A stretch of 64,000 bases of DNA, taken from assembly GCA_945901065.1 (NCBI GenBank), contig CAMDKI010000001.1:434001-498000 (forward strand), read 5' to 3'. The notes beneath the pieces were generated by a model, which saw only the letters and a program-made list of their open reading frames with translations, was not told where the DNA came from and did not search any database. The stretch's first letter is position 1. Each line of letters opens with the position of its first letter. Shown here piece by piece: positions 31,445-54,475 of this stretch. Both the position numbers and the translations under genes were made by a program. Source of the stretch: Chitinophaga pinensis. Lineage in GTDB: Bacteria; Bacteroidota; Bacteroidia; Chitinophagales; CAIOSU01.

Positions 31445-31472
31445 CTAGTAACCAGTAACCAATAACTAGAAA
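31445..31472. repeat. Heptamer array A, next to the FkbM gene stop
   Basis: Four 7-bp units in register: CTAGTAA, CCAGTAA, CCAATAA, CTAGAAA. Lies 6 bp beyond the stop of the FkbM methyltransferase gene. Confidence 0.6.
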
Positions 31473-31478
31473 CAAGCA

Positions 31479-32396
31479 TTATAGAAACATGACGTTATCC
31501 GATTCCCAGCCTGTTTTCTTTAAGTGTGCCAGTATATCAGTGCAAACAATTGGCTCGCCCAACTCATTGAGCACGTGTACGCGGTAGCCAAGGTCTTTGA
31601 GCATTCCAACGGCTTTTTTGTGACCACTGTTTTTGTTATTGTCGGCCAAATATTCCATTACTATTACGGGGTGTTGCTGCTTGAAATATTCCAATCCACC
31701 GCGCACTACTTGGTCCTCGGCACCCTCCACGTCAATTTTTATATAGGTAGGAGAAAAGTGCTCTTCGCTAAGCATAGTCGTAAGGTCTTTGCCCTGTATT
31801 TTTACTAGATTGGGCTTATTATTTTTGTACCAAGTTTCTTGCTCATATTGCCCACCCATTAAAGAGTTGTACTCCGAAAGCAATACTGGAAACTCATGAA
31901 ACGTAACTTCCTCAACCCGTTCGGTTGCGGCAATGTTGCGTATATTAATTTGGCTTAGGCCATTGGCATTTTTTCGAAGCACCTCGAAAGTAGCGGGCGA
32001 TGCCTCAATAGAGACCACTTTGCCTGTTTCGCCAACTAAGTAACCACCCAATAATGTGAAGTACCCAAAGTGTGCACCCACATCCAAAAACTGACCGCCA
32101 GTGCTTAGGTTGTTTACCAAGTACCGCGCCAAGCGTATTTCCGAAGGGTGGGTTTTGCCGCCTGTAAGGTAAATATCGGTAGCCGCTGGCAGTACAATAT
32201 GCATGGTACTACCAAAGAAGGTGCGTGCCGTGGTAATCATGCCCTTTTTGGTGTAGCGATAAATGAGCCACTTATGCACTTGTGCTGAAAAATAACGGCC
32301 AGGGGCGTTTAAAAGCCGCACAATTTTGCCAGTAGTAGCAAGTCGCTCTACTTTATCCAATTGCTTTTGCAATACCGCTTGTGTTGGCATGGTCAT
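31479..32396 (-). CDS. FkbM-family methyltransferase
   Basis: 305 residues. SAM-binding motif I is FLDVGAHFGYFTLLG (near 137), the acidic end of strand beta-2 is SIEASPATFEVL, and the FkbM motif KIDVEGAEDQVV with EYLADN follows. The family O-methylates sugars or small molecules and is often found with glycan or natural-product genes; no such genes are nearby. Start at 32396 is supported by a -7 box ending 4 nt upstream; an in-frame ATG follows at codon 3. Substrate unknown. Confidence 0.9.
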   Translation of the reverse strand: MTMPTQAVLQKQLDKVERLATTGKIVRLLNAPGRYFSAQVHKWLIYRYTKKGMITTARTFFGSTMHIVLPAATDIYLTGGKTHPSEIRLARYLVNNLSTGGQFLDVGAHFGYFTLLGGYLVGETGKVVSIEASPATFEVLRKNANGLSQINIRNIAATERVEEVTFHEFPVLLSEYNSLMGGQYEQETWYKNNKPNLVKIQGKDLTTMLSEEHFSPTYIKIDVEGAEDQVVRGGLEYFKQQHPVIVMEYLADNNKNSGHKKAVGMLKDLGYRVHVLNELGEPIVCTDILAHLKKTGWESDNVMFL

Positions 32397-32400
32397 ACGG

Positions 32401-32408
32401 CAAAGGTA
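32401..32408 (-). promoter_or_regulatory. -7 element (TACCTTTG) 4 nt ahead of the FkbM gene
   Basis: Exact TAnnTTTG on the minus strand, ending 4 nt before the ATG at 32396. Heptamer array H (32414-32448) begins 5 bp upstream and occupies the -33 region. Confidence 0.6.
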
Positions 32409-32413
32409 AGAAA

Positions 32414-32448
32414 TTGGTCAATGGCCTATTGGCAATAGACCTTGGAAA
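32414..32448. repeat. Heptamer array H in the FkbM promoter region
   Basis: Five 7-bp units: TTGGTCA, ATGGCCT, ATTGGCA, ATAGACC, TTGGAAA. The ends are partly complementary (TTGGTC and the later GACC). Confidence 0.5.
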
Positions 32449-32522
32449 AGTGAAATCGTTATAGCTCAAAACTTGAAATTATTATCCAACGTAGCAATTG
32501 AAAATTATAGCCTAAGCCACCC

Positions 32523-32580
32523 AATTTTCAAATTAGCACACCTGCCTGCCGGATAGGCTAGTTTTCCAAGTTCCAAATTA
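32523..32580. repeat. Composite intergenic repeat with palindrome, copy 1
   Basis: Contains AATTTTCAAATTAGCA (32523-32538), an exact reverse complement of 39947-39962, followed by a GC-rich palindromic segment (CCTGCCTGCCGG then AGGC) and two heptamer-like units TTTTCCA and AGTTCCA. Same architecture as the copy at 39947, in the opposite orientation. Confidence 0.6.
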
Positions 32581-32584
32581 ACAC

Positions 32585-35092
32585 CTACCGCTTCTTACGC
32601 TTTGCCCTAGTGGTATTGCTACCCGGCTGTTGGCGGCTGCTTCGGTCCGATTTCTTTTTGTTAGCTTCTTTTCGTTTGGTCGCCTTAGGCATGGCGCGGC
32701 CACTGTTTTTGCTGGCTCGTCCACCACCACCACCACCTGAGTTGGGCTTATTGCCACCAGTGCTTCCGCCACTGCGTTTGGGTTTGCCTCCTTCAACGGC
32801 CTTTCCACCTACATAGCTATTGGCATTGCTACCACGTCCACTCGGTCTGGCTGGTCCGCGCTGGTTGTTATCGCCTGCTGCTTTTTGCAGTTCGGCGCTT
32901 TCTTCTGGCGTTACTGGGTTCTCAGGGTCGGCTAGGTCAAAGTCAATCTGGCGGCGCTCCAAGTTGGTGCTCACCACGCGTACATAAATACGCTCACCAA
33001 AACGGAACTTACGGCCCGTATTGGTATCTACAATGGTCAGCTCGTTCTCGTCAAATCGGGTGCTGTATTCGCTCAGTTTGTTCTCAGGTATAAAGCCCTC
33101 GCATTTGTTGCCTTCCAGCTCTATAAAAATGCCTCGGCCAATTACCCCAGAGATAATACCCCAGAACTCTTGCCCAATGCGGTCTTGCATATACTCCACC
33201 TGCTTATACTTCACTGACTCACGCTCGGCACTCATTGCGCTGCGCTCCATGGCGCTGCAATGCACGCTCATTTCTTCTAGCAGCGGTTCGTTATAAGGGG
33301 CATCTTCATGTTCCAACACGGCATTCAGCACCCTATGCGTCAATACGTCAGGGTATCGGCGAATAGGAGAGGTAAAATGCGAGTAAAACTCAAATGCCAA
33401 GCCATAGTGGCCTATGTTTTTGGTGGTATAAAATGCCTTGGCCATAGTACGGATGGCTAGGCTGCTCAACACATTTTCCTCGGGCTTACCCTTAACACGG
33501 GCAAGAAGCCCATTTAAGGTTTCTGCTACTTGGTCAGGGTCGTTAAACTTCACTACATACCCAAACTTTCTAGCGAAATCGGCAAATTGCTCTAGTTTCT
33601 CCATGTTTGGGTAGTCGTGCACACGGTACACGTTGTATACTGGCTTTTTGTCGGTACGCAACTTGGCAAGGTATTGTGCCACGTAGCGGTTGGCCAGTAG
33701 CATATAGTCCTCAATCAGTTTGTTCGTATCTAGACTTTGTTTTACATACACATCCAGCGGCTTGCCTTCGCGGTCAAGTTTAAAGCGCACTTCTTCGCTG
33801 CTAAACTCAATAGAGCCTTTTTTCAATCGTTCACCGCGCAAGGCTAGGGCAATTTTTTGCATTACCTGCATCTCTGCCGAAAACGGACCATCACTTATGC
33901 CCTCCAGCACATCTTGCGCGGTGCGGTAGGTAAAACGCTTGTCGCTGTGTATTACCGTGCGGCCATACCATACTTCGTGCACCTTGCCATTCTCGTCAAG
34001 GTCAAATACAGCCGAAAAGGTCAATTTATCCTCATTGGGCCTAAGCGAGCATATAATGTTACTCAATCGCTCTGGAAACATTGGCGAAACCCTATCCACC
34101 AAGTACACGCTCGTGGCGCGCTCGTAAGCTTCCTTATCCAAGGCGCTTCCGGGCTTGGCATAGTGGCTCACATCGGCAATGTGCACCCCAATTTGCCAAA
34201 GGCCGTTGGCTAGTTTTTCAATACTTAGTGCGTCGTCAAAGTCTTTGGCATCGTCTGGGTCAATAGTAAAGGTGCTTACTTTGCGCATATCGCGGCGCGT
34301 AGCAATTACCTTATCGGGTATTACATCGGCAATGTCTTCAACCTCTTTCAGCACTTCATCAGGGAAAGCAAGCTTAAAGCCATTCTCTATCAATATGGAT
34401 TTCATTTCCACATCGTTGTTGCCCGATTCGCCCAATATTTCGGTTATTTTTCCGTGCGGACCTTTACTATATGCAGGCCAATCAGTAAGTTCCACCACTA
34501 CCTTGTCAAACTCTTGTGCGTTGTTTAGGTCATCATGGTCAACAAATATCTCGTAGGGCATTTTCTCGCTCTCGGGTACTACCTTCGGGCTTTTGCCATT
34601 TACGTGCAGCGTGCCTATGTATAGGTTTTTGTTGCGCTTTTCTACTCCGGTTACTTCGCCTTCGTAGCGGCCAGTTTTGCTCTTGCCTGTTACGCGGAAT
34701 CTAACGGTGTCCTTATCCAAACTATGGCCTAAGCGGCTAGGCGGTACAAATACATCGGCATCTAAATCTTCGCAGATAATGAAACCGTATCCCTGTATGG
34801 TCATATCTAATCGGCCAATTAGCGATTTGGTAACGGATTGCTTAGGAGCTACCGAGCCTTTCAGGGCAATAGTGTTATTAGCTGTCAATTCAATTTCGCC
34901 ACTTTTCAAAAGGCTATCAATAGTGCTTTGTACGTCGTGTTTATCATAGTCAAGCAAAAACTGCTTTACTACGCTCTTGCGGTGGTAATTTTTGCCAGGT
35001 ACGCTGCCCAAATAGTGCAGCAGCTCTTTCTCCAGCACACTTACTTCCAAATCGGGTTTCAGGTGCTTTTCTTTCTTTTCGTTTTTGCTCAT
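32585..35092 (-). CDS. rnr: Ribonuclease R
   Basis: 835 residues. 3'-5' exoribonuclease that degrades structured RNA and helps in mRNA, rRNA and trans-translation quality control. N-terminal winged-helix and cold-shock domains (about 20-230), then the RNB catalytic domain with FTIDPDDAKDFDDALS carrying the metal-binding aspartates (near 275-290), then an S1 domain (about 645-735). The last 90 residues are low-complexity, rich in G, K, R, S and N, as is common for RNase R. Monocistronic. Confidence 0.97.
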   Translation of the reverse strand: MSKNEKKEKHLKPDLEVSVLEKELLHYLGSVPGKNYHRKSVVKQFLLDYDKHDVQSTIDSLLKSGEIELTANNTIALKGSVAPKQSVTKSLIGRLDMTIQGYGFIICEDLDADVFVPPSRLGHSLDKDTVRFRVTGKSKTGRYEGEVTGVEKRNKNLYIGTLHVNGKSPKVVPESEKMPYEIFVDHDDLNNAQEFDKVVVELTDWPAYSKGPHGKITEILGESGNNDVEMKSILIENGFKLAFPDEVLKEVEDIADVIPDKVIATRRDMRKVSTFTIDPDDAKDFDDALSIEKLANGLWQIGVHIADVSHYAKPGSALDKEAYERATSVYLVDRVSPMFPERLSNIICSLRPNEDKLTFSAVFDLDENGKVHEVWYGRTVIHSDKRFTYRTAQDVLEGISDGPFSAEMQVMQKIALALRGERLKKGSIEFSSEEVRFKLDREGKPLDVYVKQSLDTNKLIEDYMLLANRYVAQYLAKLRTDKKPVYNVYRVHDYPNMEKLEQFADFARKFGYVVKFNDPDQVAETLNGLLARVKGKPEENVLSSLAIRTMAKAFYTTKNIGHYGLAFEFYSHFTSPIRRYPDVLTHRVLNAVLEHEDAPYNEPLLEEMSVHCSAMERSAMSAERESVKYKQVEYMQDRIGQEFWGIISGVIGRGIFIELEGNKCEGFIPENKLSEYSTRFDENELTIVDTNTGRKFRFGERIYVRVVSTNLERRQIDFDLADPENPVTPEESAELQKAAGDNNQRGPARPSGRGSNANSYVGGKAVEGGKPKRSGGSTGGNKPNSGGGGGGRASKNSGRAMPKATKRKEANKKKSDRSSRQQPGSNTTRAKRKKR

Positions 35093-35460
35093 AGTAATAA
35101 TTAATCAGCCCCTAAAACTTGGGTTGAGGTATAGTATAAAATTGGTAATTTAATTGGAATGTAGTGTATTATGTTATTGGTAATAAGTAATGAAAATGGG
35201 GCAAAGACCTTGCCCATACGGGGATATTAGTGTGGATAATATTACAAAGGTAGGGATATTTTTTGATTGGTTGGTAATTTCTAGTAATGCTTGCGGGGTA
35301 CAATGAGGTGGGCTAAGCGAGTACTGGTGGTAAAAACTAACAATATGCGAAACTAGAACAATACAAATACCCATCCAATACGTACGAATAACCCCATCCG
35401 CACTTCGCTAGCCGAATTATTCTAGTATTTTTACGCCCACCAACAACTAAAGGAAGCAAA
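35093..35460. other. Gene-free stretch between rnr and the 448-residue protein gene
   Basis: 368 bp that must hold two divergent promoters. I see a short period-7 run at 35174-35194 (TTATTGG, TAATAAG, TAATGAA) and a -7-like TATTTTTA at 35426-35433 for the rightward gene. No open frame, tRNA or hairpin terminator stands out. Confidence 0.4.
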
Positions 35461-36807
35461 ATGGCAGAAACTAGGAAGCGCGTATACCACTATGTGTACG
35501 ATGAACAGGTAGGGCAGGCAGAACGCGAACAAGATGGAACAGTAATGCACTCATTCCGTTTCAAGACCAAAAGCTTTGAAATAGAATCGGAGGATTTGTT
35601 TGACGAGGAGATACAGCTTTTCGCTTTCCCTATTCATTACCTGCACCATATTGATAGTATACTGCGCACGTTTGGTTTCCGCGACGACCCTTTTTACTTC
35701 TTCCACCAATGCAAAGAGGTGATCATGGCCCCTGAGCGTCACATCGACGATAAGGGTAATGGCAAATTGAGTTTTCAGGCACACTTTCACAACTTCCCGT
35801 TTTCGGTAAGTTCAGTAAACGATACTGCCATAGTAGTGGTAGGACTAAACGTAAAACCAGGCCAACCAGCAGGCAAACCGAAAGACTATTGGCTAACGGG
35901 CTATATACATGCCAACCGTTTCGAGTTTACGCCACCCGGCGAGAACGAGAAGTGGAATGGATACTACTACAACATGCTGCGCATAAGCGAGCGCAAAGAG
36001 AATGGGGTAGAGGTTTACCGCCGCAAGAAAATGTTTACCATGTTCTTCGCCATCCTGAATGATTTGGTGATACAAAATGATGTACACTTTATTTATGCCA
36101 GCATGGGCCGCGAAAATGTTGCCATTAAAGAGGCACTGCACCGCAGTGCCCAGCAGCATGGCAGGCACTATGAGCGCATACCGTATCGCATTTACTCAAA
36201 ATTCAATAAGTTTTGGGGCAAACGTAAGTATGAAAAGGGCTTGGTGAACATAACCAAGGATGAGGTGGCTTTGAAAAAGATGTACCAATTGGTACACGAG
36301 CGTATGAAAAACTACCTGTTCTATCACCACATTACCGAAGAGGTGTTTTTGAACATGGTGCGCCAAATAACGGAGTATAGCCACAGCAGTGGTGTATGGA
36401 TGACTACCGACGAGCAAGGCAATATTAAGGCTGCTACTATTGCCATGAATTTGGGCGATTATTTCCAGTTGGACATTGATAATGCAAAAGGTATATTGAA
36501 AGTAGTGCAGTGGATGCAGTTGTTCCACCGTTTCCTTTACTTTATACTTACCGTGGGCGATGTGGCTGAGGTGGAGAAGCTATACCGGGGTTTGGCCAGC
36601 TACTACCAACGCTATTACAGCGTACAAATGGCTTTTTTACCTTCCTGGGATTCGGACCCATACCTGAAAGTGAAGAAAAGTATTTTGATGGATGAGTACA
36701 TTTACTTTTTAATAGCGGATAGACCCGAAGAGCTAGAGCGCTTTAAACAGATAAGCAAAAATGGTGGACCTAACCTCAACTTGTTTGTCGATCAGCCGAT
36801 TATATAA
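35461..36807 (+). CDS. Conserved-looking protein of unknown function
   Basis: 448 residues, well-formed coding sequence (no low complexity, balanced amino acids). No signal peptide or membrane helix. Rich in aromatic residues and His. Parts such as FIYASMGRENVAIKEALHR and GVWMTTDEQGNIKAATIAM have the strand-helix look of acetyltransferase (GNAT-like) folds, and the two halves might be related modules, but I see no R/QxxGxG/A motif, so this is only a guess. It stands alone, divergent from rnr and convergent with the nadR-like gene (41-nt gap). Confidence 0.75.
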   Translation: MAETRKRVYHYVYDEQVGQAEREQDGTVMHSFRFKTKSFEIESEDLFDEEIQLFAFPIHYLHHIDSILRTFGFRDDPFYFFHQCKEVIMAPERHIDDKGNGKLSFQAHFHNFPFSVSSVNDTAIVVVGLNVKPGQPAGKPKDYWLTGYIHANRFEFTPPGENEKWNGYYYNMLRISERKENGVEVYRRKKMFTMFFAILNDLVIQNDVHFIYASMGRENVAIKEALHRSAQQHGRHYERIPYRIYSKFNKFWGKRKYEKGLVNITKDEVALKKMYQLVHERMKNYLFYHHITEEVFLNMVRQITEYSHSSGVWMTTDEQGNIKAATIAMNLGDYFQLDIDNAKGILKVVQWMQLFHRFLYFILTVGDVAEVEKLYRGLASYYQRYYSVQMAFLPSWDSDPYLKVKKSILMDEYIYFLIADRPEELERFKQISKNGGPNLNLFVDQPII

Positions 36808-36848
36808 CGCACTATGCTAAGTTAGTGCTTGTGGTGAAATGGCAGTGG

Positions 36849-37352
36849 CTATTGTAAAGAAGTAATTACCTGCTTTACCCTTTCCTGTAACCCACCTTGC
36901 ACATATATGTAAGGCACGTGGTTGGCATCTAACAAATTGCGGTATATGTCGGTAAAGTGCGCCCTTTGGTTGGGGTGCTCGCGCAATGAGTCGGTTTCGT
37001 AAGGGATGTCGTAATCGGTTACAATGTGCAGGTGGTACGAGCGTTGTTGTATTTCCCTTTCAATCCACTCTGGGGTGGTTTTATAAGAGTTGTCCATCCA
37101 TACTTTTATAACCCACAGATTGGTATCGCAAAACAAGTAAGGAGCCTCTGCACTGGCAACAGCTTCATCTTCCAACGATAGTTGCCCGCGGGCAATAGCT
37201 TGCACATCTAATGCTGTGTATGGTTGCTTTAATTTTCCTAAATATTCTCGGGCAAACTCGGGCACAAAAGGGCAGTTGTAGGCCATTGCCAATGCCTCTG
37301 TTAATACTGATTTTCCGGTGCACTCAGCACCTACAATCGCTATTTTTCTCAT
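36849..37352 (-). CDS. NadR-like AAA ATPase / ribosylnicotinamide kinase-type protein
   Basis: 167 residues from the ATG at 37352, which overlaps the pnuC stop as ATGA; the frame is open five codons upstream. Walker A is GAECTGKS (residues 8-15). FCDTNLWVIKVW resembles the DTD/DTN strand of NadR kinase domains, and a lid region (NQRAHFTDIYRNLLD) follows. In NadR this domain phosphorylates nicotinamide riboside to NMN, trapping it after uptake by PnuC. The adenylyltransferase and repressor domains of NadR are absent. The operon also holds a YkoF-like thiamine-binding type protein, so a different vitamin is possible. Confidence 0.85.
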   Translation of the reverse strand: MRKIAIVGAECTGKSVLTEALAMAYNCPFVPEFAREYLGKLKQPYTALDVQAIARGQLSLEDEAVASAEAPYLFCDTNLWVIKVWMDNSYKTTPEWIEREIQQRSYHLHIVTDYDIPYETDSLREHPNQRAHFTDIYRNLLDANHVPYIYVQGGLQERVKQVITSLQ

Positions 37353-37951
37353 GCCGCTTGGCTCCATTCAAGGGCCCCGTAGATAGATAAAATGGTATAC
37401 ACCAAAAACAACAATGCCGTTAGGTACATACGCCTACCAGCGTATAAAAATATAGAAACGGTATCAATAACTATCCAATAATACCAATTATCTGTAATAG
37501 CCCACACCATCATAAACGTGGCAATAATGCTAAACACGGCGGTAAATGTATCTACACCTGGCCAAAAGGCATTAGTATATTTTCTTAATAGCCAAGCCAA
37601 TGCTGAGCTGCTCAATAACCCAGTAATAATGGCTATTACATGGTTTTGCCAAGGCCAGGTTTTATAGCCTTCTGTGGTAGCTGCCCCCCAAGTGAGCCAC
37701 CCGTAAACGGCAATGGCCACGTAAAATAGGTGCAAGGCCGTTTCGGCATATAGGCGCTTAGTGTAGCACAAATAGATGAATATACCAGAGCTTAAAATAG
37801 CAGCTGGCCAACACCAGATAATGCCGTAGGTAATGAGCACTGTATAAGAAGCCCCCAACGCAACTGCAATTGCCTCTAAAACAAAATCGGGCCACGATGA
37901 TGGCTTAAGAGCAGCCACTGGGGCATCTAATATATTGTTGGTGTTGCTCAC
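37349..37951 (-). CDS. pnuC: PnuC-family vitamin transporter
   Basis: 200 residues with about seven membrane helices. The segment AETALHLFYVAIAVYGWLTW is the PnuC signature (family members read ETxLQxFYxxxxxYGWxxW), and a second tryptophan-rich repeat DNWYYWIVIDTVSIFLY follows. PnuC proteins are facilitators for nicotinamide riboside; relatives PnuT and PnuX carry thiamine and riboflavin. The kinase gene next to it fits trapping by phosphorylation. Both ends overlap neighbours by 4 bp, so all three genes are translationally coupled. Confidence 0.92.
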   Translation of the reverse strand: MSNTNNILDAPVAALKPSSWPDFVLEAIAVALGASYTVLITYGIIWCWPAAILSSGIFIYLCYTKRLYAETALHLFYVAIAVYGWLTWGAATTEGYKTWPWQNHVIAIITGLLSSSALAWLLRKYTNAFWPGVDTFTAVFSIIATFMMVWAITDNWYYWIVIDTVSIFLYAGRRMYLTALLFLVYTILSIYGALEWSQAA

Positions 37952-38217: not shown

Positions 38218-38223
38218 TTTATT

Positions 38224-38251
38224 AGTATCAAATAGTGAGTATCAAGTATCA
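38224..38251. repeat. Heptamer array C upstream of the vitamin operon
   Basis: Four 7-bp units in register: AGTATCA, AATAGTG, AGTATCA, AGTATCA. It ends 6 bp before the start codon of the YkoF-like gene and uses the same word as array D near lpdA. Confidence 0.65.
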
Positions 38252-38306: not shown

Positions 38307-38348
38307 AATTCTGAAAATTCTGATTCAGACTATCGACTGTGGACCGAA
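38307..38348. repeat. Heptamer array at the 3' end of the LD-carboxypeptidase gene
   Basis: Six 7-bp steps: AATTCTG, AAAATTC, TGATTCA, GACTATC, GACTGTG, GACCGAA. The array supplies the stop codon (38330-38332) and the last codons of the LD-carboxypeptidase gene. Confidence 0.5.
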
Positions 38349-39235
38349 AGCAAACTTACTAAATCTGTAGTTACTTCCAGCTTATGTGTGGCACCCATTA
38401 TCAAGGTACGGTTATCGTCAATATGCCCTGCTGGGAAACCGTAGCAGACGGGATAACCATACTTCGCCACCCGCTCTTGAATGATTTGGTAGGCATCTTT
38501 ACCAAACGGTATGGCATTGTCGCGCATATCGCTCATGCCACCTATAACCAGCCCAGCTAGGTGCTCCAGTTTGCCTGAGCGGTCTAGCTGATTCATCATC
38601 CGGTCAATATGGTATAGGTATTCGTCCAAGTCTTCTAAGAAAAGGATTTTGCCTTTGGTATCCATATCTGAGGTGCTGCCGCTAATGCTTATAAGCACCG
38701 AAAGGTTGCCACCAATTAGCTCGCCCTCGGCCACGCCCGCGCGGTTATATTCATGTGGCGCAATGGTATAGTCAAGCGCCTTGCCAGACAATGCTGTTCT
38801 AATGCTATCTAATGCCTCTGGGGTATTAGTTATGAAGCCCAATGGCATAGGCGCGTGCAGCGATGCAAACCCCAGTTTTTGCAAGTGCGCATGCAATACT
38901 GTTGAGTCGCTATAGCCTACTAACCACTTAGGGTTTTGATGAAAGTGTGTCCAATCCAGTTTATCCACTATCCGCACATTGCCATAGCCGCCGCGAGCGC
39001 TAACGATGGCCTTTACTTGTGGGTCGTCCAACAATTGCTGCATGTCGGCGGCACGTGCTTCGTCGGTGCCAGAGAACTGGTCAAATTCACCGCCAACGGT
39101 GTTGCCTAGTTTTACACGGTAGCCCCAGCTTTCAAATAAGGCAATAGCTGGCTTTAACTCTGCAGCGGTCATTTTACGTGCCGGACAAGTTATGCCAACT
39201 AAATCGTTGGGTTTAAGGGGTGGGGGAGTAGTCAT
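38330..39235 (-). CDS. ldcA: LD-carboxypeptidase (S66 family)
   Basis: 301 residues. Removes the terminal D-Ala from muramoyl tetrapeptides in murein recycling, cytoplasmic. S66 marks: nucleophile S109 in WLVGYSDST after SARGGYGNVRI, the late GLVIGGM segment, and the His of CYGFPAGHIDD. Starts in an ATGA overlap with the SMUG2-like gene. The last few residues (VHSR) and the stop codon are written in a heptamer array, so the natural C-terminus may have been slightly altered. Confidence 0.92.
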   Translation of the reverse strand: MTTPPPLKPNDLVGITCPARKMTAAELKPAIALFESWGYRVKLGNTVGGEFDQFSGTDEARAADMQQLLDDPQVKAIVSARGGYGNVRIVDKLDWTHFHQNPKWLVGYSDSTVLHAHLQKLGFASLHAPMPLGFITNTPEALDSIRTALSGKALDYTIAPHEYNRAGVAEGELIGGNLSVLISISGSTSDMDTKGKILFLEDLDEYLYHIDRMMNQLDRSGKLEHLAGLVIGGMSDMRDNAIPFGKDAYQIIQERVAKYGYPVCYGFPAGHIDDNRTLIMGATHKLEVTTDLVSLLSVHSR

Positions 39236-41960: not shown

Positions 41961-41988
41961 GGTCCGTCTACTGTGGTCCGTTGACTAC
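41961..41988. repeat. Heptamer array G at the lpdA stop codon
   Basis: Four 7-bp units: GGTCCGT, CTACTGT, GGTCCGT, TGACTAC. The lpdA stop codon (41985-41987) is inside the last unit. Confidence 0.6.
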
Positions 41989-43373
41989 AAATGTATCACT
42001 TCCCCGTAAGCGGCCGCGGCGGCTTCCATAATGGCTTCGCTCATGGTTGGGTGTGGGTGAATGCTCTTGATCATTTCGTGGCCAGTGGTTTCCAGTTTGC
42101 GGGCTACCACTATTTCGGCTATCATTTCGGTTACGTTGGCACCAATCATGTGTGCACCTAGTAGTTCGCCGTATTTTGCATCGAAAATAAGCTTCACAAA
42201 GCCACTGCGCGCACCAGCGGCCGTAGCCTTACCCGATGCCGTAAAAGGAAACTTACCCACCTTTAACTCATATCCCGCCTCTTTGGCCTTTGCTTCGGTA
42301 TAGCCTACGCTGGCAATCTCTGGCTGGCTGTAAGTGCAGCCAGGTATGTTGTTGTAGTTAATCGGTTCTGGGTGATGGCCTGCAAAAGCCTCTACGCAAG
42401 TAATACCCTCTGCCGATGCCACGTGGGCCAAGGCTTGGCCTTTTACCACATCGCCAATGGCATAATAGCCTTCTACGTTGGTGCGGTAATATTCATCCAC
42501 GGCAATGAGGCCTTTATCTACTTTAATGCCAACTTCCTCCAAGCCAATGTTTTCAATATTTGGGGTAAAACCCACAGCGGAAAGTACAATGTCAGCTTGC
42601 AGTTCTTCTGTGCCTTTGCTGGTTTTTACGGTAGCTTTTACACCGTCGCCTTTGGTATCCAGGCTTTCTACACTGGCACTGGTCATTACCTTAATGCCCG
42701 CTTTGCGAAACTGGCGCTCCAGCTCTTTGCTTACTTCTTCATCCTCAACAGGCACCAAACGCGGCAAGTACTCTACAATGGTTACTTCGGTACCCATGGT
42801 GCGGTAAAAGTAGGCAAACTCCACGCCAATGGCGCCAGCACCTACTATTATCAAGCTCTTAGGCTGCGTGGGCAATACCATGGCTTGGCGGTAGCCTACT
42901 ACTTTTTTGCCGTCTTGCTTCAGGTTTGGCAGCTCTTTGCTGCGGCCACCGGTGGCAATAATGATGTGTTTGGCAATATACTCGGTAGTTTTTCCATCAG
43001 CACCCGTCACGGCCACTTTCTTGCCTGGTTTTACTTTTCCTTCACCAGCAATCACCTCAATTTTGTTCTTTTTTAGGAGGAACTGCACGCCGTTGCTCAT
43101 TTGGCCCGCCACATCGCGGCTGCGCTTAACTACCGCGCCAAAGTCCGCCTCGCCACCTTGCACCTTGATACCGTAGTCGGCGGCATGGCTTAGGTATTCA
43201 AATACCTGGGCACTCTTCAGCAATGCTTTGGTAGGTATACAGCCCCAATTGAGGCAAACGCCACCTAGTTCAGCTTTTTCTATTACGGCCGTTTTTAAGC
43301 CTAATTGCGAAGCGCGTATAGCTGCTACATATCCTCCGGGGCCGCTGCCCACTACTATTACATCAAAATTCAT
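41985..43373 (-). CDS. lpdA: Dihydrolipoyl dehydrogenase
   Basis: 462 residues. E3 flavoprotein of pyruvate, 2-oxoglutarate or branched-chain dehydrogenase complexes; reoxidises dihydrolipoamide with NAD. FAD site VGSGPGGYVAAIRA, redox disulfide C40-x4-C45 (GGVCLNWGC), NAD site VGAGAIGVEFA and catalytic H441/E446 in HPHPTMSE. E1 and E2 genes are not adjacent. The stop codon lies in heptamer array G. Confidence 0.97.
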   Translation of the reverse strand: MNFDVIVVGSGPGGYVAAIRASQLGLKTAVIEKAELGGVCLNWGCIPTKALLKSAQVFEYLSHAADYGIKVQGGEADFGAVVKRSRDVAGQMSNGVQFLLKKNKIEVIAGEGKVKPGKKVAVTGADGKTTEYIAKHIIIATGGRSKELPNLKQDGKKVVGYRQAMVLPTQPKSLIIVGAGAIGVEFAYFYRTMGTEVTIVEYLPRLVPVEDEEVSKELERQFRKAGIKVMTSASVESLDTKGDGVKATVKTSKGTEELQADIVLSAVGFTPNIENIGLEEVGIKVDKGLIAVDEYYRTNVEGYYAIGDVVKGQALAHVASAEGITCVEAFAGHHPEPINYNNIPGCTYSQPEIASVGYTEAKAKEAGYELKVGKFPFTASGKATAAGARSGFVKLIFDAKYGELLGAHMIGANVTEMIAEIVVARKLETTGHEMIKSIHPHPTMSEAIMEAAAAAYGEVIHL

Positions 43374-43414: not shown

Positions 43415-43442
43415 AGTATCAAGTACCGAGTATCAAGTAGCA
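43415..43442. repeat. Heptamer array D upstream of lpdA
   Basis: Four 7-bp units in register: AGTATCA, AGTACCG, AGTATCA, AGTAGCA. Shares the word AGTATCA with array C at 38224. Confidence 0.65.
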
Positions 43443-43540
43443 AGACTGGCTAAAATGTTGTAAGGGCGTAATTCAAAACTTGTTTTAACATGCTTGGCCT
43501 GTCAAATTAAGGTAGCAAGAAATTAAAGGTGGAAACGAGC

Positions 43541-43740
43541 GTGTCATCCTGAGCTTGTCGAAGGGTGCGTGCGCTGGCTTGTTGGGACGGGTAGGATGTT
43601 TAGGGATTGAGATTATCAGTTTGCGTCAAAAGTAGTCGTTAAATTTTGAATTCAATTCTCATCGCAAATGCCCACCTCCGCTGAAAAAGCTATGGCGGGT
43701 TAGCATTCCCGCGCACCCTTTGACAAGCTCAGGATGACAC
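43541..43740. repeat. REPIN-like element with 29-bp inverted ends
   Basis: Left arm 43541-43569 (begins GTGTCATCCTGAGCTTG) and right arm 43712-43740 (ends CTCAGGATGACAC) are reverse complements over 29 bp with one difference, separated by 142 bp. The word TCATCCTGAGCTTGTCGAAGG is a familiar dispersed intergenic repeat in bacterial genomes. The pair could form one long hairpin. Confidence 0.8.
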
Positions 43741-43761
43741 ACAATGTTCGTTACGGTTAAA

Positions 43762-46691: not shown

Positions 46692-46700
46692 TTGGGACGG

Positions 46701-48281: not shown

Positions 48282-48292
48282 TGTGGTGTTTC

Positions 48293-51100
48293 TTAAAATT
48301 TATAAATGAATCCAGCGGTTATATACACGCCTTCACGGTAACTCATGATATCCTCATCAACTCCCGTAATTTTTGCATCACTGTTAGAGTCTTGTATCAA
48401 TTGCATTTTGCTGTTTAGCATATCTTGTATGCCTGCTTTTATTTGCCAGTGCGTGCCGAAGCCTTTGCTCACGGTTAGGTCTAAAACGTTTCGAGGCATT
48501 TCGTAAATATCAGGGTTTATGGCAGTACCCACTGCAAATAGGCGCTTACCAATTACATTGTACAACACGTTAAGCTGCAGCTGTTTTTCGGGCAGTTCGT
48601 AAAATACGCCAAGGTTTATAATAAAAGGCGATTGGCCCATCATGGGTCGGTTTTGCTCTTGCCCCACAGCTTGGGCACCCAGCGCTACAGTGCTGTAAAT
48701 ATATGCTGCGTTGGCTACTACGGTTATATTGCCCGCTTTGCTGTTTGCGCCAAGGTTAAAGGTTTTCCGGGCCTCTAGCTCTATGCCCAAGTTGCGGCTA
48801 AAATCGGCATTGCCGAAAGTGAAATCTTTGGTGCCGCCCGAGCCGCCCCCCGGCACAAAAAACATTTCAATGGGGTTTATAAAGTGCTTGTAAAACAACG
48901 CCGCACTTATCATTTCGCCGTTGCTAGGGTAGTATTCCCACCTTAGGTCGACATTATGAATATCGGGTGTTTTCAAATCCTCGTTGCCATACACGTTCAT
49001 ATTGAACTGGAAATCGTAGAACGAAAACGGCGCCAACTCTCTAAATTCTGGACGGTTAATGGTCCGGTAATAGGCTAGCCTCAATTGCTGCTTTTCGTTT
49101 AAGTTGTAAGTCACATTTAGCGAGGGCAATAAGCTTGCTATTGGGTTGTAAACCAATATAGGTCTATCGGCAAAGGTGCGGCTGGTAAGTTCTTGCACAT
49201 TGTACTCGGTGCGCAGTCCTGGCAAAATGGTCAATTTCGGAGATATCACGAATTTGAAACTCAAGTAGCCCGCTATCAACTGGTTGGTTGCATCGTATCT
49301 GTCGCTTGGGTTGGTTCCTTCGCTTAGTGCAAAGCCAGTGGTGCTGTTTATATTTTCAGCAGCAAAAACATCCTGCAACGGAAGCACTAATAAATCTTGG
49401 TCGAATGCTGAGGTTCTCGTTTTTTTGTATGACATCCACCTAGCAGAAAAGGTGCGCTGTTTGTATTCATAATACACGCCGGCTTTTAAAGTACCCAGCG
49501 GTTTTTCTTTCTTTTTTAGGCTAAAATCATGTTCAAAATCGGCACTAATCATGCCCAATGTTTCGTTAAGATTTGAGAAAAACCTACCAGCATCGAGGGT
49601 TGAGGCTACTGGTGAGATGATAATCGTGTAGGGTACATCGCTCGTACTACCTATGCTTTGGCGGGTTCTTACTCTTCTAAAATCGGGTTGTTTGCCAATT
49701 ACTTTCGAAAAACCGCCTGTCCAGTTAATTTTTGATATGCCATTGGTCAAATCGTGGGTGCCCGCCAACTGGCTATTGAATATGGTGCGGCTATAATACT
49801 GATAAGAAAAGTCGCGTACGTTACTGTTTTCTTCAATATTAACACCTGTGCGCAGCACTGCTTGGTTAGTGCCCAGTTGGTTCAAGAAATTGCGGAACTC
49901 AAGCCGGTGGCCTTTTTTTAACTGAAACGACCAGTTGTGCATCAGGCTGCTTCGTACGGTATTAATGTAGTTTTCGTCGCGGTAATCATATATTTTATCA
50001 CTTTCCTGAAGTTCTTCGTCAAATTGGTTGTAGCTGAAATTGGTTGCTCGGTAAGAACGGTAACTGTTAGAATAATTAATTGCCGTTATGTTACTTGTGC
50101 GCACTTTACCAATCAGGAAGTTTCGCAAAATCTGAAAATTGAAGCGTATATCGGGTATGGCGGTAGATTGATTGGGCGCCCAGTTGTTTGCAAAGTTCTT
50201 GCCTAGGGTGCTCAAATACGCTGCATCGTTTATCGTATTTAAGCTAGCAGGGAAATTATTGGGCAAGTCCCGTTTGCCGGCACCTAGGCCAAACACATCT
50301 CCTGCATAGTTGCCGCCATGGTAGTAGGTATTAAAGGTGCTGCCCGAGCGGTACGACATAGCCAGCCCAATATCAATTCGGTTGCTATCGGCCATGTTAC
50401 GAGTATAAACCTTTACAATGCCACCGGCAAACTCGCCTGGCAGATCTGCTGTAGCTGTTTTATGTATAACTACCCTATCCAAGGCACTACTAGGTATGGC
50501 ATCAAACGAAAATGCTTTTTTATCAACCTCGGCACTTGGGGTAAGAACCCCGTTTAGCAATACATTGTTGTAACGTTCGCTCAAGCCCCTAATCATCACA
50601 AAATTGCTTCCTACAATAGTTACACCTGGCACTCTCTTTAGCACATCGGTAGCGTTTCGGTCCTGAGTTTTCGATATTTGGGAGGCAGATATAGCATTTA
50701 CTATCGCATCGCTCTTTCTTGTTTCTATTATTACCGCGGTTTCGGTATTGGTTATGCGGCTACCTCCTACATCTACAGTGCCCAATAGTTTGGCATCGCT
50801 GGCTAGACTGATATTAAGGGAGGTAAAATTATTTGCGACAATATTAACATTTTGGGTATCACTCACATAGCCAATTATGGCTATTACTATGCTGTGCTTA
50901 CCCGCTGGCAGTTCCAGACTATATGCACCGTCAAAATCGGTAGTAGTGCCAAAGCTAGTGTTGGGTATATATATACTGGCAAATGGTAACTTCTCGCCAT
51001 TGCGCCCATCAGTTACTATGCCCGTTAGCCTGCCCGTTTGGGCTTGGGCATAAAAGCACGATAGGAGCATTGCAAAAAGTAAGTAAATACGTGGCAACAT
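48293..51100 (-). CDS. TonB-dependent outer membrane receptor with CarboxypepD_reg domain
   Basis: About 935 residues from the ATG at 51100 (MLPRIYLLF); the frame is open 14 codons upstream, over the promoter. Signal peptide ends FYAQAQ. A carboxypeptidase-regulatory-like domain (about 25-105, LTGIVTDGRNGEKLPFASIYIP), then the plug (ATDVLKRVPGVTIVGSNFVMIRG, RYNNVLLNGV) and a 22-strand-type barrel ending in the aromatic VYITAGFIYKF. Imports a bound nutrient with TonB energy. No SusD gene is next to it; a beta-helix lipoprotein is. Its position opposite phoX suggests a phosphate compound as cargo. Confidence 0.93.
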   Translation of the reverse strand: MLPRIYLLFAMLLSCFYAQAQTGRLTGIVTDGRNGEKLPFASIYIPNTSFGTTTDFDGAYSLELPAGKHSIVIAIIGYVSDTQNVNIVANNFTSLNISLASDAKLLGTVDVGGSRITNTETAVIIETRKSDAIVNAISASQISKTQDRNATDVLKRVPGVTIVGSNFVMIRGLSERYNNVLLNGVLTPSAEVDKKAFSFDAIPSSALDRVVIHKTATADLPGEFAGGIVKVYTRNMADSNRIDIGLAMSYRSGSTFNTYYHGGNYAGDVFGLGAGKRDLPNNFPASLNTINDAAYLSTLGKNFANNWAPNQSTAIPDIRFNFQILRNFLIGKVRTSNITAINYSNSYRSYRATNFSYNQFDEELQESDKIYDYRDENYINTVRSSLMHNWSFQLKKGHRLEFRNFLNQLGTNQAVLRTGVNIEENSNVRDFSYQYYSRTIFNSQLAGTHDLTNGISKINWTGGFSKVIGKQPDFRRVRTRQSIGSTSDVPYTIIISPVASTLDAGRFFSNLNETLGMISADFEHDFSLKKKEKPLGTLKAGVYYEYKQRTFSARWMSYKKTRTSAFDQDLLVLPLQDVFAAENINSTTGFALSEGTNPSDRYDATNQLIAGYLSFKFVISPKLTILPGLRTEYNVQELTSRTFADRPILVYNPIASLLPSLNVTYNLNEKQQLRLAYYRTINRPEFRELAPFSFYDFQFNMNVYGNEDLKTPDIHNVDLRWEYYPSNGEMISAALFYKHFINPIEMFFVPGGGSGGTKDFTFGNADFSRNLGIELEARKTFNLGANSKAGNITVVANAAYIYSTVALGAQAVGQEQNRPMMGQSPFIINLGVFYELPEKQLQLNVLYNVIGKRLFAVGTAINPDIYEMPRNVLDLTVSKGFGTHWQIKAGIQDMLNSKMQLIQDSNSDAKITGVDEDIMSYREGVYITAGFIYKF

Positions 51101-51117
51101 GAAAAAACTTTGTACTG

Positions 51118-51125
51118 CGAAATTA
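51118..51125 (-). promoter_or_regulatory. -7-like element (TAATTTCG) of the TonB receptor gene
   Basis: Seven of eight bases match TAnnTTTG on the minus strand, ending 17 nt before the ATG. Two direct decamers (51139-51148 GCAATGGTTA and 51149-51158 GCAATGGTTC) lie 13-33 bp upstream, where an activator or repressor could bind. Confidence 0.4.
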
Positions 51126-51159
51126 GCGTTTGGCGGTGGCAATGGTTAGCAATGGTTCG

Positions 51160-51176
51160 TTAACATTTTCTTAATA
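51160..51176. promoter_or_regulatory. Pho-box-like repeat, receptor side (TTAACA-N5-TTAATA)
   Basis: Two hexamers 11 bp apart on the plus strand, one base from perfect repetition. Similar to the pair at 51294-51310 on the phoX side of the same intergenic region. Confidence 0.4.
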
Positions 51177-51293
51177 AATTCAATCGCCAAAAAAGCAACG
51201 GGAGGAATAACCTAAAAGCCCTAAATGATAGTATTATTGCATTACAGGTTTGCCCTTCTATTGTTTATGATGCATAATTATAGTAATTTTCTG

Positions 51294-51310
51294 TTAACAT
51301 TAGTTTAACA
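51294..51310 (+). promoter_or_regulatory. Pho-box-like direct repeat ahead of phoX (TTAACA-N5-TTAACA)
   Basis: Two identical hexamers with an 11-bp period. It ends 20 bp before the -7 element at 51331, in the place of the -33 element, which is missing. PhoP of Bacillus and PhoB of E. coli bind direct repeats with this period at such positions. Confidence 0.5.
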
Positions 51311-51330
51311 AGCAGAAAACTTTTTAAAAC

Positions 51331-51338
51331 TAATTTTG
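51331..51338 (+). promoter_or_regulatory. -7 element (TAATTTTG) of phoX
   Basis: Exact TAnnTTTG, 22 bp ahead of the ATG at 51361; leader about 16 nt. No TTG at -33; a Pho-box-like repeat occupies that zone. Confidence 0.6.
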
Positions 51339-51360
51339 GACAGTATTAAACAACATAACC

Positions 51361-52989
51361 ATGAAGTCTTTACCACTTTCACTACTCTTTACTTTTTTTA
51401 GCGCATTTTCTTTTGCCCAAATTGGAAACTTTACTTCTGTAGAGCCTACATTTCAAGACGAACTGTTGCATATTCCTTCAAGCCATGCTTTTCAAGTTCT
51501 TGCCCAAGAAGGAGATGTATTAACTGATGGTTCATCGATGGGACAATGGAGCGACTTGACCGCCTACGTGCCTATAGATGGCAGTAGCACCCACGGATAC
51601 CTTTGCGTAAACTCGGAGTTTGTTCCAGGTGCTGTATCTATTTTCGAAATTCAATTGAACCCGAATACTAAGCTTTGGGAAGTTTTGAATTCAAAGAACG
51701 CTGATTTTACAGCTTTTAATTGCAACGCTGGCATTGCAGTAGCTGGCACTATTGCCAATTGTTCAGGTGGTGTTACTCCATGGGGTACGGTTGTTACTTC
51801 TGAAGAGTCTGATGAGGTGCCTCAGTTTTTGTGCAATTACCAAGGTTACAAATCTTTTGGCTGGAATGTAGAAATAGATCCACTGACGGGTGATGTTGTG
51901 GACTACGACAATGATGGCAACCCTGATAAAGTTTGGGCCATGGGAAACATGAAGCATGAGAATGTTGCTTTTGCAAATGATAGCCTTACCGTTTACCAAG
52001 GCGAAGACAACTCATCGGCAGGATTTTTATACAAGTTTATCATGGACAATAAAACAGACTTGAGCAGCGGAAAACTTTACGCACTTAAGCTGGCGAGCAA
52101 TTGGATTACTAGCGGCGAGGCTACTTGGATTTTGATACCAAACACAAGCAAATCGGAGCGTAACGATGTTACAGCTGCGACCAATAGTCTTGGGGCAACA
52201 AAGTTTGACCGTGTTGAAGACATAGAGATTGGTCCTGATGGTAAAATTTATTTTACTTCTACCGGCCAGAATATTGTGTTTAGGTTTAATGATGTGGATA
52301 ATGCCACCGCAAACGGTTTCGAGATTTTTATTGATAACGTTAACGTACCAATTCAAACTGAATCAGGAACTTTTCAGGCATTATTTGCTGCTCCAGATAA
52401 CTTGGCTTTCGATAATCAAGGCAATCTTTGGATAAATCAAGATGGCGGAGAGAACTATTTTTGGATGGTTGAGCCTACTCACACGGTTGCAAATCCTAAA
52501 GTGCATGTGTTTGCAAACACCCCCAACGGTTGCGAAAGCACTGGAACCCATTTCACGCCTGATGGCAAATATATGTTCATCAGCATTCAGCACCCAGAGG
52601 CTACTAATGTTGCGTGGCAAAACGATGTTGCCGACCGTAGCGTAGTTTTCGATAAATCAGCGACAATGGTAATTGCGCTGAACGAAGACCTTGGTGATAC
52701 CACCACCGGTATTGCTGGCCCGATGGAAGATACTGGTATGTTTAATACTTTGGTGGTTTATCCTAACCCTGTTGCTGAAGTGTTCAATATTTCGCTAAAT
52801 TCTGCCATCTACGATTATGTAGATATTATCATTTATGATGCTACCGGCAAGCAAGTAAAAACAACCAAACTTTTTGTAAACCTTGGCCGCAACGAGTTGC
52901 AGATTGACGCAAGCCAGCTATCGGTTGGGCAATATGTTTTAACACTGCGCCATCGCAAAGGGCACATTACTACTACTTTCCAAAAGTAA
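51361..52989 (+). CDS. PhoX-family alkaline phosphatase with T9SS type A tail
   Basis: 542 residues. Signal peptide ends FSFAQ. PhoX (DUF839) marks: C134-SGGVTPWGTVVTSEE with E148/E149, H199-E200 in MKHENVAF, RVEDIEIGPDG (E286), PDNLAFDNQGNLWINQD, and GCESTGTHFTPDGKYMFISIQHP. PhoX enzymes are calcium/iron-dependent monoesterases that free phosphate from organic esters when phosphate is scarce. The last 80 residues (VVYPNPVAEVFNISL ... GQYVLTL) are a type A T9SS sorting domain, so export is by T9SS and not by Tat as for many PhoX. A hairpin terminator follows. Confidence 0.9.
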   Translation: MKSLPLSLLFTFFSAFSFAQIGNFTSVEPTFQDELLHIPSSHAFQVLAQEGDVLTDGSSMGQWSDLTAYVPIDGSSTHGYLCVNSEFVPGAVSIFEIQLNPNTKLWEVLNSKNADFTAFNCNAGIAVAGTIANCSGGVTPWGTVVTSEESDEVPQFLCNYQGYKSFGWNVEIDPLTGDVVDYDNDGNPDKVWAMGNMKHENVAFANDSLTVYQGEDNSSAGFLYKFIMDNKTDLSSGKLYALKLASNWITSGEATWILIPNTSKSERNDVTAATNSLGATKFDRVEDIEIGPDGKIYFTSTGQNIVFRFNDVDNATANGFEIFIDNVNVPIQTESGTFQALFAAPDNLAFDNQGNLWINQDGGENYFWMVEPTHTVANPKVHVFANTPNGCESTGTHFTPDGKYMFISIQHPEATNVAWQNDVADRSVVFDKSATMVIALNEDLGDTTTGIAGPMEDTGMFNTLVVYPNPVAEVFNISLNSAIYDYVDIIIYDATGKQVKTTKLFVNLGRNELQIDASQLSVGQYVLTLRHRKGHITTTFQK

Positions 52990-53016
52990 TTGGTATAATT
53001 CTAACTCTTGTTATCT

Positions 53017-53055
53017 AAAACCCCGCTCCTTATTAGGAGTGGGGTTTTCTTTTTT
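53017..53055 (+). terminator. Terminator of phoX
   Basis: 14-bp stem (53017-53030 with 53035-53048, one G-T pair), 4-nt loop, then CTTTTTT. Lies 27 nt after the phoX stop. Confidence 0.88.
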
Positions 53056-53123
53056 GCAATAGATGGGTTATCGTGGCGTTTTGTTATCTCATTATCCATT
53101 ATTTTAGCAAGTAACTACTGCAT

Positions 53124-53903
53124 ATGAAAAGACAATATTTGTTGCTTGGCCTAATTTTTTTGGTTTCGTTTAGTGCTTGTAAAAAGGATGATAAAACCGT
53201 TGACTACGAAACGGTTGATAATTTTTATAAAAAGGTATCCACCATTGAGGTTGAAGTGGCTTACGAACTAGGTGCAGAACCATATACTGCCCTTACCAAT
53301 GGCGATAATATTTGGCAGTTTACACAAACGAATGTCGAAGCACTTTTTGATGGGCGTCCTTTAAGCGTAAGTGTAACGGTGCCACCTAATTTAGCTTCTA
53401 TGCAGCAAATACCTGATCAAAACAGGGATAACTATAGTGCTCAGGATGTAATGAACTTGGCTACTAGGTTTCGCCGTGGTGTAAATACCGAAACTAGTGG
53501 TAATCTATGGGTGGTTTTCTTGGACGGCTATTTTAAAGACGGCGATAGCCTTCGCACCAACGTGCTGGGTGTAAATATTACCGGCACTAGTATTACAGCA
53601 GTTTTTAAGCCTGTAATAAATGGTGTGGGGGCATTAACATCGCTGCGCAAATACATTGAGCAAAGCACTGTGGTGCACGAGCTTGGCCATGCACTAGGCC
53701 TTGTAAATTCTGGCTTGCCCGAGACTAGTAGCCACACCGATCCAGACCATGGTGGCCACTGCACCAACGAAGACTGTGTGATGTATTGGCTAAACGAAGG
53801 TGCTGTAAACCTTTCCAACTTTGTAAGCCAAAACGGCATGAGTCAGTTTACAGTAGTTTTCGGCCCAGAGTGCTTACAAGATACTAGGTCGTATTTTCCG
53901 TAA
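53124..53903 (+). CDS. Metzincin-like zinc metalloprotease lipoprotein
   Basis: 259 residues. Lipobox VSFSAC with Cys19, so membrane anchored on the periplasmic or outer side. Zinc helix H185-E186-L-G-H189-A-L-G; the usual third ligand position (195) is Asn, so the third ligand is probably one of the histidines in SSHTDPDHGGHC (H204, H209, H212). CVMYW supplies a Met-turn-like methionine. Peptide or protein hydrolysis at the cell envelope is likely; substrate unknown. It follows the phoX terminator, so it is a separate unit. Confidence 0.85.
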   Translation: MKRQYLLLGLIFLVSFSACKKDDKTVDYETVDNFYKKVSTIEVEVAYELGAEPYTALTNGDNIWQFTQTNVEALFDGRPLSVSVTVPPNLASMQQIPDQNRDNYSAQDVMNLATRFRRGVNTETSGNLWVVFLDGYFKDGDSLRTNVLGVNITGTSITAVFKPVINGVGALTSLRKYIEQSTVVHELGHALGLVNSGLPETSSHTDPDHGGHCTNEDCVMYWLNEGAVNLSNFVSQNGMSQFTVVFGPECLQDTRSYFP

Positions 53904-53905
53904 GG

Positions 53906-53982
53906 CTAGTTATTGGTTACTAGCTATTTGCTAATTGGTATGCTTATAGTCATTCAGCCAGTAAACCAATAACCAATTACGC
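53906..53982. repeat. Heptamer array E, inverted pair between the metalloprotease and DUF3467 genes
   Basis: Left block 53906-53940: CTAGTTA, TTGGTTA, CTAGCTA, TTTGCTA, ATTGGTA. Right block 53962-53982: TAAACCA, ATAACCA, ATTACGC, with the complementary words. TTATTGGTT (53910-53918) pairs with AACCAATAA (53964-53972). The left block starts 2 bp after one stop codon and the right block contains the stop (53977-53979) of the DUF3467 gene. Confidence 0.6.
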
Positions 53983-54291
53983 TTGCGCGGTTGGGGTGCC
54001 AAAGTTCAAGGGCATGCCACCGTAAGTGTCATCCTCTTCAATTGTTCCGTTTACTTGCTCGTATTTCTTTACATTGTCGGTCAATGCGCGCAATAGGCGC
54101 TTAGCATGCTGCGGGGTAAGTATAATACGCGATTTTACTTTTGCTTTTGGCACACCAGGCATTACGCGCACAAAATCTACCACAAACTCGGCATTACTGT
54201 GGGTTATAATGGCAAGGTTTGAGTATACACCTTCTGCTACTTCTTCAGTTAATTCTATATTCAGTTGGTTCTGCATTTGTTCTTCAGCCAT
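53977..54291 (-). CDS. DUF3467 protein
   Basis: 104 residues, soluble. Reads LNIELTEEVAEGVYSNLAIITHSNAEFVVDFVRVMPG ... SRIILTPQHAKRLLRALTDNVKKYE, which is the DUF3467 pattern; function unknown. Flanked on both sides by heptamer arrays and lying after rpoC in the same orientation, but separated by the rpoC terminator, so it has its own transcript. Its neighbours do not suggest a role. Confidence 0.9.
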   Translation of the reverse strand: MAEEQMQNQLNIELTEEVAEGVYSNLAIITHSNAEFVVDFVRVMPGVPKAKVKSRIILTPQHAKRLLRALTDNVKKYEQVNGTIEEDDTYGGMPLNFGTPTAQA

Positions 54292-54349
54292 GATTGCTAT
54301 TGTTATTATGTGCTACAATTTTAAGGGAAATTATTGGCTCTACCTAAAG

Positions 54350-54475
54350 TTACGGGTTGCGAGTTACGGGTTGCGAGTTAGATTTTTATAGCTGGATGTA
54401 GGAATTGGTTGGTTGTTTTTGTTTCACTTAGATAAACAAATTGAAACTCGTAACTCGCAACCCGTAACCCGCAAC
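54350..54475. repeat. Heptamer array F, inverted pair beyond the rpoC terminator
   Basis: Left block 54350-54380: TTACGGG, TTGCGAG, twice, then TTA (an exact 14-bp tandem). Right block 54447-54475: CTCGTAA, CTCGCAA, CCCGTAA, CCCGCAA, C. CTCGCAACCCGTAA is the exact reverse complement of the left 14-mer, so the two blocks can pair across about 66 bp. Confidence 0.75.

Follow-up and report, generated by a model that had tools for sequence, protein, structure and literature searches.

The abundance of heptanucleotide repeats in bacteria has long been an open question, and each repeated word has so far been given its own account: quadruplex, translational regulator, or slippage. Rehm et al. (2015; PMC4692102) described single G-rich words, GGGAATC in Xanthomonas and GGGGA(C/T)T in Nostoc, which are intergenic, prefer four units and contain degenerate positions; these repeats lie near the open reading frame (ORF) on the word's 5′ side regardless of the direction of that ORF, overlap with stop codons, frequently form convergent pairs in Xanthomonas, and were read as G-quadruplexes. 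The TAACTGA repeats described by MacGregor (2015; PMC4679880) occur in Beggiatoaceae, Cyanobacteria and five Bacteroidetes in groups of two to six units that read forward ahead of start codons, one group directly after a stop being reversed, with related heptamers interspersed, and were proposed as sites for a translational regulator. Slippage was proposed for heptanucleotide repeats generally (Mrazek 2007, as cited in PMC4679880 and PMC4692102). Here we describe arrays of degenerate heptamers at gene borders in a 64,000-bp stretch of the Chitinophaga pinensis genome (the window). They are discrete blocks, mostly four heptamers with a short end, which we call arms; they fall into at least eight word families, turn their 5′ ends toward the adjoining genes, and are replaced in place, one family by another, between close relatives.

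The source genome (G000) is 3.3 Mb in 17 contigs, the window being positions 434001-498000 of contig C1. All statistics are from about 0.86 Mb (864 kb) of this genome, taken as stretches. An unbiased block of 464 kb, of which 83 kb is intergenic, consists of C1:1-400000 together with the window; the other 0.4 Mb was picked around matches to word family A for the word catalogue, which inflates the share of that family. Genes were called with a simple codon-usage caller, so that start codons are approximate. The comparison genomes G002, G003, G004 and G005 are of the same genus and with G000 make five carriers of arms, whereas G001 and G006 represent arm-less genera of the same family. Alignment of G000 with G004 gave 190 gaps between genes, with a flank identity of 95.4%. 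The sense of each word family was fixed from the stop side of genes, and the start side was then scored with that sense.

Period, words and sense of the arms

The intergenic DNA of the unbiased block contains 53 lag-7 segments at score 9, compared with five at period 6 and 11 at period 8, and the common 7-bp period noted in an initial annotation of the window is thus borne out, more strongly than that annotation supposed; the outcome that it named as contrary, no excess over periods 6 and 8, is not what is found. The comparison it proposed between intergenic, coding and shuffled DNA gives lag-7 densities per 100 kb of 63.9, 1.3 and 1.6 respectively, the last in dinucleotide shuffles. Lags of 14 and 21 are also elevated, as harmonics of 7. 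Mild elevations at periods 8, 15 and 16 seem to come from other repeats; a longer-period word type (AATTTGAAAATGTGCTAATTTGG-like), present at 32487-32581 of the window and also at C1:359313 and C13:48902, may be their source.

The 864 kb contain 183 arms, six of them within genes, and the same scan of the reversed sequence returns eight. Arm length is sharply modal at 30-33 bp, corresponding to four units plus the short end, and four units are present in 61 of 91 A arms, 20 of 32 B arms, 37 of 58 C arms and 13 of 22 D arms of the enlarged set; a few long arrays exist. Written in the common sense, the families are A (RGTTRCG), B (AGTATCA, with AGTAGTG, AGTAGCA and AGTACCG), C (ATTTACG/AGGTACG/AAGTACG/ATGTACG), D (AGACACA), E (RGTTATT/RGTTACT), F (RGTCSAY), G (ARATTYA) and H (AGTRACT). 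Many have preferred inner ends: AGTT(G/T) in A, AGAC in B, ATTG in C, often GGA in F, and AAATTGG in G; the outer flank of the arms is T-rich. Adjacent identical units are avoided in family A (15 of 199, with 32.5 expected), and an exact 28-mer of family B is present at five places. Tracts of GGG occur in some A arms only, with none in families B to H, and TAACTGA is not among the families found, the related unit AGTTATC occurring singly. The initial annotation was correct in seeing many words under one period; the words, though, reduce to a limited number of degenerate families that share a preferred unit count and a fixed sense.

Whatever the direction of the adjoining gene, the word turns its 5′ end to it (146 of 170 arms). 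On the stop side, 63 of 78 arms start no more than 10 bp from the stop codon, against 10 by uniform placement (maximum 22 in 2000 trials), and in one case only does the inner end of an arm lie within 10 bp of a gene. Twenty of the 63 abutting arms overlap the stop codon; 14 of these have the stop TAG, in 13 of them with T|AG at the junction. Start-side arms follow the same sense (76/92); some end 1-12 bp from the start codon, and others lie directly upstream of a TAnnTTTG promoter, 15 outward and three inward. Stops and starts are used about equally. Tandem, divergent and convergent gaps have the same shares among arm-bearing gaps as among all gaps, so that the direction of transcription plays no visible part. 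The rule of sense and place is repeated in G003 and G004. The absence of arrays inside genes save at stop codons, noted in the initial annotation, is correct and proved its most informative remark.

Pairs, turnover and sites in the window

Facing arms are present in 44 gaps, and in 24 of these the two arms are of the same family, where 9.6 are expected (permutation p <1e-5); many gaps carry two different families. Same-family pairs mostly enclose spacers of 42-153 bp, and several pairs occupy their gap completely, with 0-6 bp remaining on each side. Across 38 spacers there is no common interior, save for overlapping entries and one unrelated dispersed repeat. The arms of A pairs are slightly less complementary to each other than random A arms, and many gaps are of mixed family, which removes an RNA hairpin between the two arms as an explanation. 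Arms placed around one gene share a family in three of 13 cases, with 2.8 expected, and on this lack of excess a gene cassette with its own bracketing arms is rejected.

Where gene order is kept, gaps of 17 and 14 bp in the arm-less G001 and G006 correspond to 113 bp in this genus, and gaps of 51 and 132 bp to 246 bp; further examples from the arm-less genera are -3 and 33 bp for 104 bp here, and about 30 bp for 204 bp, while a 145-bp gap of this genus is 42 bp in G001 and 588 bp in G006. At most kept junctions the gap is 14-51 bp in the arm-less genera and 104-246 bp here, and the simplest reading is therefore that arms and spacers were gained in this genus.

Between genomes of about 95% identity, arms come and go and a slot can pass from one family to another, as the aligned borders that the initial annotation suggested comparing make evident. 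Arms are present in 43 of the 190 gaps aligned between G000 and G004, and absent from 147. In 30 slots both genomes have named families, which are the same in 19 and different in 11. The slot at C1:217156 has A and B in G000, C and C in G004, C and F in G005, and D with B (three times) in G003, with the same flanking genes in all four and a spacer that is recognisably similar in G000 and G005; at C1:22302 the B arm of G000 is represented by a D arm of equal length in G004, G005 and G002. Single units are gained or lost between G000 and G004 at C1:146746 and 160179. Flank identity at swapped borders is an ordinary 95.0%, and since swapped and unswapped flanks are equally similar, import of diverged alleles does not account for the exchange. 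In kept arms, divergence is 9.7% at degenerate positions and 3.3% at core positions, against 6.4% in the surrounding gap; the core value is biased low, as only arms recognisable in both genomes can be scored. A further slot has a C arm in G000 (stretch L048 13689) and, in its G004 counterpart (C42), an A arm beside a RelE-type toxin-antitoxin-like pair with flanking TGTCACTCTGAGC repeats.

Each of the five genomes of the genus carries family A, which is absent from the two other genera of the family. Among 120 genomes, family B is found in this genus and in g37, a genus belonging to a different family of the same order, and otherwise in single matches. The g37 genomes (G047 and G059) have period-7 arrays with other words, some starting 2-4 bases past stops, and single arrays there switch word without leaving the 7-bp register (AGTGGTG to AGTATCA at L303 1470-1547; AGGAGAG to AGTGGTG at L322 1843-1895). 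No period-7 arrays were found in samples of G001, G006, G007 and G027. In other phyla, family A has the correct sense on the stop side in 51 of 60 cases and lies within 10 bp of the stop in 30 of 60; in a scan with the A word, the word's 5′ side is nearer the ORF in 83 of 106, and the records include Alcanivorax, Pseudoalteromonas, Vibrio, Saprospiraceae and Desulfobacteraceae. Viral contigs, too, carry family-A words, in 26 stretches.

The sites in the window are listed in the table. Six of the eight proposed in the initial annotation are clear; one, at 38307-38348, is only partial, and at 32414-32448 none of the lag scans recovers an array. Two of the clear sites are pairs, one convergent (53908-53935 with an arm reaching ~53982) and one inverted (54348-54375 with 54449-54476). 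The A pair, which follows rpoC, is kept in G005 and altered in G002 and G003, and in G004 a D array stands instead. A search of the window against Rfam gave zero matches. An inverted pair of another dispersed repeat (TGTCATCCTGAGCTTGTCGAAGGGTGCGCG), with copies in many other gaps and in some arm spacers, lies at 43540-43575 and 43708-43742.

Heptamer arms and associated features of the window (coordinates are window positions)
Feature	Position	Strand	Context
E-family arm (TTGGTTA), four units	31447..31474	-	5′ end toward stop of minus-strand gene 31479-32396; from lag scan and sequence
B-family arm (AGTATCA AATAGTG AGTATCA AGTATCA)	38224..38251	+	6 bp from start codon of minus-strand gene on its left
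Partial F-family array (GGTCCAC AGTCGAT AGTC)	38312..38348	-	about 2.5 words across stop of gene 38330-39235; by eye, weak, under arm threshold
F-type four-word array, GGTCCAY type (AGTCAAC GGACCAC AGTAGAC GGACCAA)	41961..41988	-	overlaps TAG stop of gene 41985-43373; lag 14
B-family arm (AGTATCA AGTACCG AGTATCA AGTAGCA)	43415..43442	+	upstream of gene 41985-43373
E-family arm	53908..53935	+	begins 4 bp past stop of gene 53124-53903
Decayed E-family partner arm	53955..53982	-	reaches end of convergent gene 53977-54291; in G004 the partner is full, with five units
A-family arm (AGTTACG GGTTGCG AGTTACG GGTTGCG + AGTTA)	54348..54375	+	56 bp upstream of start of gene 53977-54291
Spacer between two A arms	54376..54448	.	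unique in sampled genome; G005 retains it; altered or absent in G002, G003 and G004
A-family partner arm	54449..54476	-	faces rpoC-side terminator at ~54487-54525

Origin of the arms

The initial annotation suggested a common mechanism making or spreading heptamers; this idea is supported by the shared period, unit number, sense and position, by replacement in the same slot, and by the other words of equal period in g37, a second genus of the order, although the four-unit block, the rule of sense, the abutment on genes and the exchange of families were all missed. We tentatively favour a reading of the arrays as arms of foldback-like insertions that are small, dispersed and seated in gene junctions, the arms being spread by copying from other arms. 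It is backed by the four-unit mode, the length of 30-33 bp, the family-preferred ends, the T-rich outer flank, the rule of sense and the abutment on stops, and equally by the same-family facing pairs, the gaps longer than in arm-less genera, the 11 of 30 exchanged slots, the lack of bias in gap orientation and the B 28-mer at five places. Under such a process arms would be copied from other arms, primed unidirectionally at T-rich sites next to genes, which would fix both sense and phase; a polar copying or insertion step would write the arm inward from the gene edge, and selection would retain the events that leave both genes whole. The junction would then hold mostly non-functional DNA, changing at about the rate of its surroundings.

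Four observations weigh against foldback-like insertion. The spacers are not repeated, unlike those of any standard transposon. No clean empty site is found among the close relatives, so neither the insertion step nor any target-site duplication is observed, and the arm-less genera are too diverged to supply one. Uniform insertion into gaps would not place 81% of stop-side arms at the stop codon, and some preference for the edge beyond the model is needed. The slower change of core positions may reflect function, though the detection bias pulls the same way.

The main rival is that the arms are functional edge sites, either binding sites or insulators that block transcription into a gene from either side, with any of several words serving given the period and sense. 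Such sites would have the strict place and sense seen at starts and stops alike and the preferred unit number, with degenerate positions free to vary and a core that diverges less than the surrounding gap. We nevertheless regard this as less likely, in that words are swapped between close relatives, convergent, tandem and divergent gaps are used without preference, most aligned gaps lack arms altogether, and paired arms are not co-adapted. One binding protein alone would fit the pattern poorly.

Elements of the REP (repetitive extragenic palindromic) or REPIN kind, moved on single-stranded foldback DNA by a REP-associated Y1 transposase, are an improbable source. REPINs are convergent doublets with variable loops, which the facing arms resemble, and strong Y1 matches are present in G000, G003, G004 and G005, those in the arm-less G001 and G006 all being weaker; yet the palindromic core of a REP is not seen in the arms, and Y1 genes are present in all seven genomes, carriers and non-carriers. 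The sole Y1 gene between A arms, in G003 (L297 1376-2075, upstream of prfA), encodes a small IS200-like, REP-associated transposase with its own palindromic GGGAC/GTCCC repeats, and the A arms outside these abut the neighbouring genes and belong to them, which speaks against this transposase as the source of the arms. In G002, two F arms with the same flanks lie 2.15 kb apart on either side of a Y1 transposase gene (L300 936-983 and 3089-3136), in what looks like a tandem duplication.

That heptamers were duplicated in place by polymerase slippage (Mrazek 2007, as cited in PMC4679880 and PMC4692102) is also doubtful as an origin. Among long simple repeats, those of period 7 are the most common in many bacteria, a few long arrays do exist here, and some arms gain or lose single units (the two C1 cases above), but slippage alone leaves the preferred count of four, the fixed sense to genes and the occurrence of the same degenerate words in unrelated phyla unexplained, and it is at odds with the avoidance of identical neighbours in family A and with whole-family replacement in one slot. 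Slippage is therefore disfavoured as the origin and retained as a minor modifier.

A telomerase-like reverse transcriptase extending broken ends between genes with heptamers is very improbable and is set aside: 3′-end extension would yield the observed sense, and DRT10, which produces tandem-repeat DNA off an RNA template, is a precedent (PMC12632851), but no RVT_1 protein was found in four of the five carriers (G000, G002, G003 and G005), and the lack of one in G003, a genome 97% complete, is strong evidence against a recognisable genome-encoded enzyme. G004, alone in the genus, has an RVT_1 gene (L294 1351-2385, ~345 amino acids), which is possibly a retron or defence reverse transcriptase.

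Comparison with known repeats

Like REPINs and miniature inverted-repeat transposable elements (MITEs), the arms are short elements scattered through intergenic DNA, have inverted ends and form convergent doublets; they differ in that no palindromic REP core is seen, in lacking a common interior, and in having several interchangeable end families. Identity as MITEs is rejected, as the spacer interiors are not common to the copies.

Long simple sequence repeats (LSSRs) and short tandemly repeated repetitive (STRR) heptamers share with the arms the unit of seven and the intergenic excess. Their units are near-identical and open-ended in number, whereas those here are degenerate, with a mode of four and, in family A, avoidance of identical neighbours. 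Slippage is the account given for them, and where PMC4679880 cites Mrazek 2007 it gives no rule on unit number, sense or abutment.

The initial annotation knew of no counterpart in Bacteroidota, but TAACTGA repeats are known there, in five species (PMC4679880). Their orientation, forward at starts and reversed after stops, is the gene-facing sense of the arms; they are, however, of one word, lie mostly at starts and have two units most commonly, whereas here the words differ and starts are used about as often as stops. The likeness to cyanobacterial heptamers drawn in the initial annotation is apt, as the Nostoc word GGGGAYT, together with the Xanthomonas word GGGAATC, shares the four-unit preference and the gene-facing sense (PMC4692102), seen here in 146 of 170 arms, and convergent pairs correspond to the 44 gaps with facing arms. 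Those genomes have one G-rich word each; here there are at least eight families, mostly without G-tracts, exchanged in place among relatives. No link between the repeats of Rehm et al. (2015) and MacGregor (2015) was found in the open-access literature, and subscription papers may hold more.

The quadruplex and translational-regulator accounts cannot hold for most of the words here, and both are rejected as a general answer since they leave the other families uncovered. Since eight or more words follow common rules of number, sense and place, and near relatives swap them at one and the same slot, word-specific accounts fall as a general answer, and the question becomes testable in close relatives. 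It is possible, and we put it forward with reserve, that gene-facing four-heptamer arms are one widespread class, of which Xanthomonas GGGAATC, Nostoc GGGGAYT, Beggiatoaceae TAACTGA and the present families would be word variants, with a polar copying process overwriting one family with another at the same edge. The exchanges represent a fast route by which gene gaps are enlarged and rewritten while genes stay put. The four-unit preference, gene-facing sense and convergent pairs are already known for single words in Xanthomonas and Nostoc, and the sense is known for TAACTGA in Beggiatoaceae; what seems new is the presence of at least eight families under one rule in one genome, the in-place exchange of families, and an A word common to several phyla.

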